Made by a program: the position numbers and the translations under genes
The notes under the pieces: generated by a model
What the model was told of the DNA's origin: nothing
Seen by the model: only the letters and a program-made list of their open reading frames with translations
Databases searched by the model: none
From: a virus
DNA length: 43,908 bases
IMG/VR virus record: IMGVR_UViG_3300047463_000374
Span: 1-43,908 of that record
Reading direction: 5' to 3' (one strand)
Part shown: piece after piece, positions 2,898-12,673 of the stretch
Position numbering within the stretch: position 1 is the first letter of the stretch
How the letters are laid out: each line of letters opens with the position of its first letter

Positions 2898-3239
2898 TCA
2901 ATCTTCTACGCGTCTAAAACCCTCTGCTACGTACTCGCGCTGGCGACGCACGTGATACGTACCCTTGTTGAACGCGATCGTCTCGTGCGTGTCGTGAGGG
3001 CGCATGTGCTCGAGCAGCGCGCCGTCTTCCTCGACCTGGAGAAACACGTCCATGATCGAGTCGGGAAGAGTAAACATCTTCACGCGATCTGCGAGCATGA
3101 CGTGGTGGTGGTCAGTCTCCGAGTGGGTGACGATGAGTCGACCGTTCTCAGGCTGGACCGGCACTGCGTTGGCCGGAAGGGCGCTGCAGCGCCGAATATA
3201 GATGTCGCCCTGCGCGCACACCGTCTTAAACTGCTTCAT
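2898..3239 (-). CDS. Conserved phage protein of unknown function
   Basis: Predicted 113 residues. It has features I recall in a common phage family: QGDIYIRR near the start, a THSETDHHHVM block, RPHDTHETI, and GTYHVRRQREY near the end. The His-rich strands could form a cupin-like metal site, but this is a guess. It has its own promoter at 3294-3322, giving a leader of about 55 bases with an AGGGG ribosome site. Confidence 0.75.
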   Translation of the reverse strand: MKQFKTVCAQGDIYIRRCSALPANAVPVQPENGRLIVTHSETDHHHVMLADRVKMFTLPDSIMDVFLQVEEDGALLEHMRPHDTHETIAFNKGTYHVRRQREYVAEGFRRVED

Positions 3240-3293
3240 GATTTAACCCCTAGTTGCTGGTTTTTTGCTGACTAACTACTTACTCTACTACTT

Positions 3294-3322
3294 ATTATAC
3301 CACGGACGCCGGCCGTTGTACA
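3294..3322 (-). promoter_or_regulatory. Early-type promoter inside the end of the SWIM gene
   Basis: Minus strand TGTACA, 17 bases ending in TGG, TATAAT. It overlaps the last codons of the SWIM-like gene and drives the 113-aa gene. Confidence 0.75.
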
Positions 3323-3681
3323 CTGTTGATGTGCTTACAGCTCTTGTGAAAGCCAAAGCCAACGCACGTGCACGACCAACTCCTGCCGTCTCGAGTCACG
3401 ACGTACTCGCTTCCCTTAGAGCCCTTGACCACGTGCGTCTCTCGCCGCATGGTCTCGGCCGCGAGCTCCTGCCTGACGCCACCGATCGAGACGATGTCTC
3501 GCTTCTCGATGACGCGAATCGGCGTGAAGTCGTCGCCAGTCATCGCGATGCAGTTTGCGGACACGTGCCTGGGGTTCTCGAGGATCACACCGCGGTATGT
3601 CACGGTGGCGGGCTCGTTGTAGAAGATGGCTCCAGACCCACAGGGCCGATTGCGCACCACTACTTCGACGGCGTTAGTCAT
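3295..3681 (-). CDS. SWIM-type zinc finger protein
   Basis: Predicted 128 residues from the ATG at 3681 (MTNAVEVVV), which overlaps the stop of the upstream gene. A longer in-frame reading exists but lies inside that gene. The C-terminus has the SWIM pattern: after VVTRDGRSW come C-T-C, then about 9 residues, then C-K-H. SWIM fingers bind DNA or protein partners. The N-terminal part is not recognised. The last codons overlap the promoter at 3294-3322. Confidence 0.7.
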   Translation of the reverse strand: MTNAVEVVVRNRPCGSGAIFYNEPATVTYRGVILENPRHVSANCIAMTGDDFTPIRVIEKRDIVSIGGVRQELAAETMRRETHVVKGSKGSEYVVTRDGRSWSCTCVGFGFHKSCKHINSVQRPASVV

Positions 3682-7954: not shown

Positions 7955-8002
7955 GCCTGTCGCGGACCGTGAATCCCACAGGCTCTATAACTGGAGGAGT
8001 TA
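7955..8002 (+). promoter_or_regulatory. Structured leader of homing endonuclease 2 (copy B)
   Basis: Hairpin I pairs GCCTGT (7955-7960) with ACAGGC (7978-7983), inner GGA/TCC. Hairpin II TAACT/AGTTA has GGAGG in the loop and is identical to copy A. The spacer TCTA between hairpins is the same in all three copies. Confidence 0.75.
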
Positions 8003-8007
8003 CAGCG

Positions 8008-8535
8008 ATGTCAAATATTTATTACGTCTACGCGTATATTCGTAAGTCTGATGGAACACCTTACTATATCGGTAAGGGTAAAGAAGACAGAGCATATGCT
8101 CCGCATGGTGGAGTAAAAGTTCCAAGAGATAAATCCAAGATAGTATTTTTAGAGACCAATTTAACAGAATTGGGTGCTTTTGCTATCGAAAGACGTTTAA
8201 TTAAATGGTATGGACGAAAAGATATTGGTACCGGCATTCTTAGAAATAGAACACATGGCGGTGAAGGTTTTACTGGAAAACATAAACCAGAAAGTCGTGA
8301 AAAAACTAGACAATCTTTACTATCTAAGCGAGAACAAATAAGACAAACGACAATAAATCAATGGAAAAATGGTAAAGCCATTATAGATCAAGAAAAAATT
8401 AAAGAAAGTATGAAACAAAAATACGGTGTAGATAACATACGACACCTAAAATCTACGTGCGAACACTGTGGTAAATCTGGTCAAATGGTAGCCATGTTAA
8501 GATGGCATCATGATAATTGTAGGTCGTGCAGGTAG
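8008..8535 (+). CDS. GIY-YIG homing endonuclease 2 with C-terminal zinc finger
   Basis: Predicted 175 residues from the ATG after the leader; a longer reading would start inside hairpin I. GIY strand YYVYAYI, YIG strand YYIGKGK, then the catalytic-type helix [12 protein letters not shown] and an RNRTHGGEG segment. The C-terminus has a finger: C-x2-C, then about 12 residues, H-H-x3-C, with another Cys at the end. AT-rich and unlike its neighbours. Its stop codon lies about 5 bases from the 3' hairpin of the tmRNA, which is transcribed towards it. Confidence 0.88.
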
Positions 8536-8539
8536 GTGG

Positions 8540-8990
8540 CAGTTGATTCTGTTTCTAGGTCCAACTGACAAAACCCAAGAAGACTAGGCTGCTAGAGCCA
8601 TATCCTCAATGCCATTATCATTCGCGGCATTTAACGATGCATCTATCACGGCTTCTGCTTTACCGATTCTCCACCGTCTCTTCAGCACCAGTCGATCCTG
8701 TTTCGCCCCCAGCATAGACACCTCGATGGCACATGATGACTCGCATATTGTCGCTATCATCTTTCCACGAATCGAGATCGTATACTCATCTAAGAGTACT
8801 TTTTATGCCTGTGTCTGTGGTGGAGGCGGCGGGTACTGCCCCCGCGTCCTGATTGCCTATCCACACGGCTTCATCGAATTAGGCGCCCAGTAACTTTAAA
8901 GTCCACCGGGCTGGGACTACTTCTAATACAACGGCCAGCGTTACCGCACTTCTCGCTCGAGCCTGCCGGCCGTCGGAGCGCTACCTACGA
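8540..8990 (-). ncRNA. ssrA: Circularly permuted (two-piece, alphaproteobacterial-type) tmRNA
   Basis: Minus-strand order is acceptor piece, intervening segment, coding piece. Acceptor 3' strand CGCCTCC plus A plus encoded CCA ends at 8818. A 5-bp T-type stem GCGGG/CCCGC lies just before it. The coding piece starts at 8710 with GGGGGCG, which pairs over 7 bp with CGCCTCC and gives a G3-U70 wobble, the alanine identity element. The tag frame at 8628-8584 reads AANDNGIEDMALAA then TAG. The 107-nt intervening segment (8711-8817) starts and ends with AGACAC/GTGTCT, extending the acceptor stem. CAGTTG/CAACTG at 8540-8567 forms the 3' hairpin. The left part of the acceptor piece (8870-8990) has pseudoknot-like helices such as CTACG/CGTAG; its exact end is uncertain. 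Confidence 0.9.
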
Positions 8991-9132
8991 TTACCTACAA
9001 AACGTAGCCGGCTGCAGGGGGGAATCAAGAGGGCCAGGTCGATCTGGTAGGTCCCTCAGGTTAGGTCTCTGCATACTATCGACTCGACGTCGTATTAGTC
9101 GTCTCTGTTATACCTTTCGGCGTGCTGCCATT
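8991..9132 (-). other. Region upstream of the tmRNA
   Basis: No gene is seen. The minus strand can form GAGGG/CCCTC with an inner CCAG/CTGG hairpin at about 9028-9057. It also holds CAGCCGGC, which can pair with a segment of the acceptor piece. The tmRNA precursor may start here. A TATAAC near 9107 could be a -10, but no matching -35 is clear. Confidence 0.35.
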
Positions 9133-9366
9133 TCAGTTATCCTTCGTTCCCTCTTCCTTCATGTAACGCTTGCCCTGCTTCTCGGCCTCTCTCCTATTGG
9201 TCAAGAAGTGAGACTGCCTGATCTTACCGTTCCTATGCAGCGTGAGCAGGTAGCCGGGTCTGACGACGTGCTCGCCGTTGATCAAATAATCCATGATATA
9301 AGGCTCTACTGTGTAGGTCCTTATGTCTGGTTCCCTGAGCCAATCGGGCGTCTTACTAAGAAGCAT
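9133..9366 (-). CDS. Hypothetical small protein
   Basis: Predicted 77 residues. Mixed, with a Tyr-rich segment (TYTVEPYIMDYLI), a short strand and a basic tail. Family not recognised. It lies at the end of the run of small genes downstream of the FkbM-type gene. Confidence 0.6.
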   Translation of the reverse strand: MLLSKTPDWLREPDIRTYTVEPYIMDYLINGEHVVRPGYLLTLHRNGKIRQSHFLTNRREAEKQGKRYMKEEGTKDN

Positions 9367-11634: not shown

Positions 11635-12504
11635 TTACTTAGCAGTCGGCGATACGTTTACGAACGGAAGACTCGCGCCGGGAACCATGGTCATTGGCAG
11701 GTGACCGTCCCACTTCTCGGCTGTGATCTTAGAGACTAGCGCTGGGTTCTTGGCCAGGGCGTCACCGACTCGCTGCACGGCCTCGGCCTCGGCGATCGAC
11801 GTCAGGCGCTTGGACTCGGCCTGGCCTCGAGCGTGCTCGATGTCGGCGTCTGCCTTGGCCTTGGCGTCGATCACGGTCTGCTCTGCCGCAATCTTCTGAC
11901 GAGCTAGGTCCTGCTCAGCCTTGGTCACTAGAGCGCGGGACTGAACTGCTGCCTCGACCGCCTTCTCGTACTCCTTTGAGAAGTCGATGTTCTCTAGCTG
12001 CACGGACTCGATGATGATACCTCGCTTGAGCAGCTGCTCAGCCGAGTGAATCGTCACCTGCGCGGCAAGCTTCTCACGTGACACGATGATTCGCGCCGCG
12101 TCGTTTGAGTTGATCACTGACTTATAGTAGGTCGGCACGACCGGTGAGATCAGGTTGACCCAGTAGTTCGCGCCGGCAGTGCTCATGATATCGACTACCT
12201 TACCTGGATCCAGATGCCAGATCACCGTAATCTTAGAGTTAGACGTCTGCTGGTCCGAGGTATAGGCGCTGACGTTTTCATATGTCAGTCGCATTGTCTT
12301 CATGTTGACGTGCTCAACGCTCTCGATGATCGGCACCTTGAAGTGCAGGCCAGGATCTGCAGTACCGACGATGCCGCCGTTTCGATAGATCACACCCATC
12401 TCGCCTTGGCTTACGGTATACCACGAGCCAAACATGACGGTTAGACCCAAAAGCATGGCTAGCGCTGTGGTTCCAATCAACAGAAATGATTTAATAGGAT
12501 TCAT
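11635..12504 (-). CDS. SPFH (band 7/prohibitin) membrane protein
   Basis: Predicted 289 residues from MNPIKSF at 12504, after GAGGAAG. One N-terminal membrane helix (about 6-28) is followed by the SPFH domain, with QGEMGVIYRNGG and DPGLHFKVP typical of HflC/prohibitin proteins. A long Ala/Glu/Lys coiled coil (ARQKIAAEQTVIDAKAKAD) follows. Such proteins form large cages that hold membrane proteases or rafts. A phage copy could sequester host FtsH-type protease or shape the membrane. A small single-helix gene lies just upstream and may be a partner. Confidence 0.88.
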   Translation of the reverse strand: MNPIKSFLLIGTTALAMLLGLTVMFGSWYTVSQGEMGVIYRNGGIVGTADPGLHFKVPIIESVEHVNMKTMRLTYENVSAYTSDQQTSNSKITVIWHLDPGKVVDIMSTAGANYWVNLISPVVPTYYKSVINSNDAARIIVSREKLAAQVTIHSAEQLLKRGIIIESVQLENIDFSKEYEKAVEAAVQSRALVTKAEQDLARQKIAAEQTVIDAKAKADADIEHARGQAESKRLTSIAEAEAVQRVGDALAKNPALVSKITAEKWDGHLPMTMVPGASLPFVNVSPTAK

Positions 12505-12526
12505 GACTTTCACTTCCTCTTTATAT

Positions 12527-12673
12527 CTACTTTGCGTTTGGTTTCGACTTGCTGCTCTTGGCATTGTCTTCTCCTGACTTGCGCCATACAACGTGCGAGG
12601 CCACGTGCCTCACACCCATTATCACCAGGCAGACGATAACTACCGCGCCGATGATCTCTGCTACAACCTGCAT
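12527..12673 (-). CDS. Single-pass membrane microprotein
   Basis: Predicted 48 residues, ATG at 12673 with GGAGAGAG before it and TAG at 12527-12529. MQVVAEIIGAVVIVCLVIM is a hydrophobic N-terminal helix; the tail is basic (Ser/Lys-rich). It ends 22 bases before the SPFH gene. Genes for SPFH proteins are often next to small membrane partners, so a complex is plausible, though no NfeD-like sequence is seen. Confidence 0.7.
   Translation of the reverse strand: MQVVAEIIGAVVIVCLVIMGVRHVASHVVWRKSGEDNAKSSKSKPNAK

Follow-up and report, generated by a model that had tools for sequence, protein, structure and literature searches.

Two-piece tmRNA genes are already known from phages, and the locus described here raises the question of whether it is a genuine phage gene of this kind and how its anatomy compares with that of the bacterial form. 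The window, a virus contig of 43,908 bases (IMGVR_UViG_3300047463_000374) analysed over its whole length, had been credited in a first-pass annotation with a minus-strand permuted tmRNA bearing an encoded CCA end. Its span, given as 8540-8990 in plus-strand order, was nearly right; the gene itself runs from approximately 8913 to 8538 on the minus strand.

Identification of a permuted tmRNA gene

Searches with Rfam cmscan returned full-length matches to two models: RF04321 (tmRNA_permuted) at 8880-8584 (98.7 bits, E = 3.9e-18; gathering cut-off 47 bits) and RF01849 (alpha_tmRNA), the model that the first-pass annotation had proposed as a check, at 8930-8538 (89.1 bits, E = 5.4e-23; gathering cut-off 50 bits). 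ARAGORN reports a tmRNA* at 8913-8493 with the tag AANDNGIEDMALAA, and direct reading gives the order acceptor piece, spacer, coding piece, which is the permuted one. The three methods agree on a minus-strand permuted tmRNA with an encoded CCA, and the alpha_tmRNA match and ARAGORN tag bear out the alphaproteobacterial type of order and the separate tag that had been proposed.

The acceptor piece (8818-8913; 5' end approximate, at 8913 by ARAGORN and 8930 or 8880 by Rfam) comprises the 3' strand of P2, the T-arm GGACGCGGGGGCAGTACCCGCC, the acceptor 3' strand CGCCTCC and ACCA, as placed by Rfam, ARAGORN and direct reading, with the CCA end read at 8818-8820. It is followed by a spacer at 8711-8817 whose removal is expected and whose length, read directly, is the 107 nt first recorded. 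The coding piece (8538-8710; 3' end approximate, at 8538 by Rfam and 8493 by ARAGORN) contains the acceptor 5' strand GGGGGCG, the D-loop GAAACAGGATCGAC, the tag frame and a 3' tail. Both pieces are joined by the acceptor stem GGGGGCG/CGCCUCC, with the pairs G-C, G-C, G-U, G-C, G-C, C-G and G-C read directly and the predicted G3-U70 present. P2 also pairs between the pieces under the RF04321 model, with three non-standard pairs marked by cmscan. The tag frame, A(A)NDNGIEDMALAA and the stop codon TAG, occupies 8628-8584 by ARAGORN and direct reading and closes with a hydrophobic AA end (AANDNGIEDMALAA-stop); its first alanine is uncertain by one codon, with GCC or GCG as the resume codon. At 8540-8567 a 3' terminal hairpin, CAGTTG...CAACTG, surrounds ACCTAGAAACAGAA, which matches the alpha_tmRNA consensus ACCuGGCAACAGAA.

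The gene is real and functional-looking. Its score of 98.7 bits is lower than that of typical host genes (130-167 bits), which fits divergence and also partial decay. No sigma-70 promoter was found adjoining the tmRNA, so its expression must rely on co-transcription or on a phage promoter. A 94-aa ORF on the plus strand (8609-8893) is antisense to the tmRNA and was taken as spurious.

Genomic context and a syntenic relative

The window has T4-like gene content, including a gp23-type head protein (E = 6e-163), a gp20-type portal (4e-128), gp46/47, a UvsW-type helicase and a clamp loader. Among named phages, the nearest head proteins are those of Stenotrophomonas phage DLP_6, Methylophilales phage Melnitz and Sinorhizobium T4-like phages. 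A syntenic contig of 13,970 bases, L083, has a tmRNA at the same place, between an upstream gene and a downstream ATPase common to both. The L083 tmRNA also lies above the Rfam cut-offs (87.4 and 74.1 bits), which argues that the window tmRNA is more than chance. The tmRNA and spacer together are 87% identical between the two contigs, versus 67-77% for the flanking genes. The placement in a T4-like phage made at first pass is thus upheld by the genes of the contig and by L083.

Could the gene nevertheless be bacterial DNA, an ssrA copy introduced by misassembly or left as the remnant of a prophage attachment site? tmRNA genes are frequent integration sites (PMC11915505), but phage-like genes lie on both flanks and the same gene is present in the syntenic phage contig. 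An identical host copy, which had been named beforehand as a sign of contamination, did not emerge: the exact 32-base acceptor/T-arm sequence of the window occurs in only 18 contigs across 84,980 genomes, and the complete genes there have other spacers and tags. Host contamination was rejected on these grounds, and we consider a host origin extremely improbable.

Abutting the 3' end of the tmRNA, and convergent with it, is a plus-strand ORF of 188 aa (7969-8535) that probably encodes a GIY-YIG homing endonuclease. The protein matches PHROG 15526 and 10829, both of unknown function; its best solved-structure match is to GIY-YIG (E = 0.02, weak), YVYAYI...PYYIGKG and GGEG are recognizable by eye, and Pfam and NCBIfam gave no GIY-YIG match. 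In L083 a tRNA gene (3276-3349) takes its place in the gap between tmRNA and ATPase (3168-3355), so the window gene is likely, judging from this comparison, to be a recent arrival beside the tmRNA.

On the other side of the tmRNA, approximately 220 nt without a clear gene (8881-9132) separate the acceptor piece from the upstream ORF, whose stop is near 9133; in L083 the upstream gene runs directly into the tmRNA, with no such gap. An inverted repeat (8933-8944/9163-9174) spans most of this interval, and the stretch 8881-9130 folds no better than shuffles (z = -0.30). Inside the L083 coding piece, just ahead of the tag frame, a direct repeat of about 21 nt (ATCGGATTGGGAATTTTCTCG) occurs three times (3440-3535). 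Elsewhere in the window, a minus-strand gene (11635-12591) encodes a phage SPFH protein resembling HflK/HflC (NCBIfam E = 1.2e-12, below the curated cut-off; PHROG 200). HflK and HflC are modulators of the FtsH protease.

Relation to known tmRNAs

Mycobacteriophage tmRNAs, from unrelated phages, are as far as known one-piece or lack a tag frame. They share with the window gene the property of being phage-encoded (e.g. Lethe, PMC13097058), and the tmRNA database paper counts 79 phage tmRNAs (PMC11915505). Closer relatives have been described. The first-pass annotation knew of no such form in a T4-like phage, a view superseded by a 2022 study. It reports a two-piece tmRNA for Melnitz, a T4-like phage, mentions Pelagibacter phage Mosig by name and arrives at 53 unique two-piece forms among 18,146 phage genomes, almost all of marine or aquatic origin (PMC9004378). 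Like the window, Melnitz and Mosig combine a permuted tmRNA in a T4-like phage with a stem-capped spacer; the stem has 11 pairs in Melnitz and reads TAAACACATTA/TAATGTGTTTA, by eye, in Mosig. Their sequences and tags (ANDNYVPVDYALAA and GEDNFALAA) differ from those of the window. A glutamine riboswitch adjoins the tmRNA of Melnitz, whereas no riboswitch was found near the window tmRNA at E up to 1, and the Melnitz spacer holds a reading frame whereas that of the window is a folded RNA.

The alphaproteobacterial two-piece tmRNA (RF01849; Caulobacter) shares with the window the permuted order, encoded CCA, G3-U70, GGGGGCNGUACCC T-arm and ANDN...AA tag. This type suggests an alphaproteobacterial host, a weak hint because Melnitz, with a non-alphaproteobacterial host, also has an alpha-type gene (PMC9004378).

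The spacer is enlarged and capped by a terminal stem

The enlarged, stem-capped spacer is the more unusual property of the gene; the first-pass annotation had recorded its length alone. Spacers were measured in 117 viral loci, 89 of them distinct. The distinct viral spacers have a median of 96 nt (range 24-489), versus 29 nt (maximum 48) in 29 alphaproteobacterial genomes (Mann-Whitney p = 1.2e-12), a comparison that is incompletely balanced in that the viral sample was picked by one T-arm sequence and the hosts are the 29 best-scoring matches. Host spacers, unlike those of the phages, also mostly lack a long stem enclosing the CCA. Among the host matches listed, 3 of 150 have spacers as long as that of the window, these outliers measuring 115-232 nt.

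A terminal stem with 8 or more uninterrupted pairs is present in 87% of the distinct viral spacers, compared with 2.6% of shuffles. It starts right after the CCA, usually ends about 4 nt ahead of GGGG, stacks on the acceptor stem and encloses the CCA. Those 4 nt can partly pair with ACCA, so that the precursor is a nearly continuous hairpin enclosing the CCA. In the window the stem is formed by AGACAC (8811-8816; spacer positions 2-7), just 3' of the CCA, and GTGTCT (8716-8721; spacer positions 97-102), 5 nt ahead of the coding piece. Its six perfect pairs, one of them compensated relative to L083, fall short of the group's usual 8 or more; both contigs fold in this way together with their acceptor stems.

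The window and L083 spacers are 88% identical, differing at 13 of 107 positions. Within a 25-pair structure three pairs are changed on both sides, one on one side and none is broken; the helices were chosen by complementarity, and RNAalifold alone recovers two of the three compensatory pairs. These compensated internal helices, the excess of spacer identity over the flanking genes (67-77%) and folding better than shuffles (z = -2.6) are what would be expected if the 107-nt spacer, once freed by tmRNA processing, were a functional RNA in its own right. The same conservation could serve processing alone, and the type is known from just two sequences: no Rfam family matches the spacer, and a scan of IMG/VR with the spacer core found L083 alone. 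We therefore judge a separate function of the released RNA unlikely. In another contig, L186, a 108-nt spacer (near 11710-11820) contains a tRNA-like sequence that ARAGORN calls tRNA-Phe.

Many phage spacers contain genes

The window spacer is capped and folded but carries no gene: read in the direction of the tmRNA, it has no frame reaching 30 codons. Such frames are present in 45 of 101 distinct viral spacers, a set that includes loci sought for their long spacers, so that 45% is not a prevalence. A ribosome-binding site precedes 24 of the frames, against 2 on the reverse strand and 6 in shuffles. Most changes between homologous spacer frames from different contigs fall at third codon positions, with dN/dS values of approximately 0.06 (L092/L148), 0.08 (L131/L092), 0.15 (L124/L163), 0.09 (L169/L185), 0.14 (L179/L233), 0.10 (L117/L212) and 0.25 (the distant HNH pair L179/L115). 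Values of about 0.05-0.25, estimated from sequence comparison, show purifying selection on several spacer-frame families.

Three spacers (L115, L179 and L233) encode an HNH-type protein, that of L179 scoring 21.1 bits with Pfam HNH, just below the cut-off of 21.4, and one (L232) encodes a LAGLIDADG protein (31 bits, cut-off 22.5). Related phages thus apparently keep homing endonuclease genes in the tmRNA spacer. L179 derives from a 157,580-base contig with a gp23-type gene; the whole locus (L301) is above the Rfam cut-off at 50.4 bits despite its 489-nt spacer and encodes ANDNAPRFALAA, a tag read from the sequence. Cyanophage relatives of the spacer HNH protein occur in phages without a permuted tmRNA match, so this endonuclease family is not confined to tmRNA. 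A membrane-type spacer protein had no match in 50,697 phage records or Pfam. The Melnitz spacer holds an unannotated 54-codon frame that begins MFKWLSKTRLVV and has GGAG upstream.

A removable segment of pre-tmRNA that carries a homing endonuclease gene has a parallel in group I intron tmRNA with LAGLIDADG genes (PMC11915505); the phage relatives differ in having the gene in the spacer of a permuted form, with no intron, and the window spacer has no gene. For the intervening sequence of permuted genes, the accessible text of that paper names a single tRNA-Ala and a single repetitive element; a protein gene is not mentioned. We found no description of a stem-capped, gene-carrying spacer in the openly searchable papers, and an earlier notice elsewhere is possible.

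Many spacer frames end at a TGA directly ahead of the coding piece. In six loci (L119, L124, L163, L170, L189 and L229) the stop lies only inside the coding piece, and a cut at the tmRNA 5' end, the RNase P site, would leave a nonstop message. Nonstop mRNA is the substrate of tmRNA, and by analogy with arfA such spacer messages might be regulated by it. For some frames the ribosome-binding site lies within the terminal stem.

Distribution and annotation of phage permuted tmRNAs

At least 119 IMG/VR contigs share the exact 32-base T-arm/acceptor sequence with the window, and all five tested contigs above 100 kb that contain it have a gp23-type gene. Among 28 contigs with head proteins near that of the window, mostly fragments, a permuted tmRNA above cut-off is present in three. 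About 150 nt can be aligned, and tree support would be weak. Two of the 18 contigs found among genomes, L207 and L212, have phage-type spacers and belong to nominal Euryarchaeota and Muricauda MAGs. These are likely phage contigs binned into MAGs, and such binning may explain some 'archaeal' tmRNAs.

Annotation misses permuted tmRNA genes as well as the Melnitz spacer frame. In the records searched, unannotated permuted tmRNAs were found in Rhodobacter phage RcRudolph, Erythrobacter phages vB_EliS-L02 and XM05, Mesorhizobium phage Cp1R7A-A1 and Stenotrophomonas phage DLP_6. The DLP_6 gene (L291; KU682439.2, 102838-103059; 136.8 bits; tag ANDDSFAPMAIAA) belongs to a T4-like phage of a gammaproteobacterium. 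In RcRudolph the 'hypothetical protein' RcRudolph_61 (L279, 1128-1463) overlaps both the acceptor piece and the spacer, and was probably called as a gene in error. In the two Erythrobacter phages (L281 and L283) a gene annotated as proteasome subunit/HslV-family peptidase closely follows the tmRNA, so tag and protease may be linked there. A tandem half-copy is present in L224 (6638-6971), in the order acceptor piece, spacer with a 43-codon frame, GGGGGCGAA D-arm, second acceptor piece and complete coding piece.

Proposed mechanism

We conclude that the window very probably encodes an alphaproteobacterial-type permuted tmRNA of the phage, made as a single precursor and presumably processed, alanylated and active in tagging with host SmpB. 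This is the best explanation because two Rfam models and ARAGORN agree and the acceptor with G3-U70, the CCA and the tag are intact; because the tmRNA lies at the same place in L083 and is better conserved than its flanks; because the spacer pairs show three compensatory changes and none broken, on a plan common to many viral contigs; and because the gene content is T4-like, with no SmpB gene in 20 phage records.

One precursor would contain acceptor piece, spacer and coding piece. The sequence and its covariation show that the spacer folds on itself, its terminal stem stacking on the acceptor stem with the CCA inside the nearly continuous hairpin. By analogy with known permuted tmRNAs, host RNase P at 8711/8710 and a 3' nuclease after the CCA would excise the spacer, leaving two pieces held together by the acceptor stem and P2. 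G3-U70 should, by the established rule, make the product a substrate of alanyl-tRNA synthetase. With host SmpB the tmRNA would then enter stalled ribosomes and add A(A)NDNGIEDMALAA, whose LAA end should direct the tagged product to ClpXP-type proteases. The likely gain for the phage would be ribosome recycling during host mRNA breakdown. That the RNA exists as two pieces and influences tagging in infected cells, as suggested at first pass, is plausible.

The absence of SmpB (no gene was found in the window or 19 other phage records in a search that detected it in 10 control genomes, although a weak relative would escape) is also compatible with a decoy, in which the phage RNA weakens host trans-translation by sequestering SmpB, alanyl-tRNA synthetase or stalled ribosomes. 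A precedent is the mycobacteriophage DS6A form without a tag frame, which is reported to inhibit endogenous tmRNA in E. coli (PMC11915505). A decoy would need no tag, however, and the window retains a full tag frame (NDN...ALAA and stop), as do 62 other viral loci by ARAGORN; we regard inhibition as very unlikely and favour active tagging.

In the wider phage family the spacer has become a site for structured RNA or complete genes. It is possible, if doubtful, that the phage permuted tmRNA is a dual-use platform. In this reading the spacer, being always removed, would be a safe site for structured RNA as well as for homing endonucleases and small proteins, with the window as a folded-RNA member and with ArfA-like feedback between tmRNA and small protein. 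Where the spacer gene stops inside the tmRNA (for example ...MMGAN-stop at GCGAACTAG) or has its ribosome-binding site in the processing stem, maturation of the tmRNA would preclude stable synthesis of the small protein and vice versa, and the protein would accumulate only when tmRNA is in short supply.

Implications

Phage tmRNAs are often regarded as copies borrowed from the host. The comparison made here shows a consistent anatomical difference: a long spacer whose closing stem encloses the CCA and which holds genes in many phages. The probable endonucleases in the spacer could spread the tmRNA locus as mobile DNA. It becomes testable how a pre-tmRNA whose CCA is paired gets cut, whether a single transcript acts as tmRNA and mRNA alike, and whether the nested proteins have a link to ribosome rescue.
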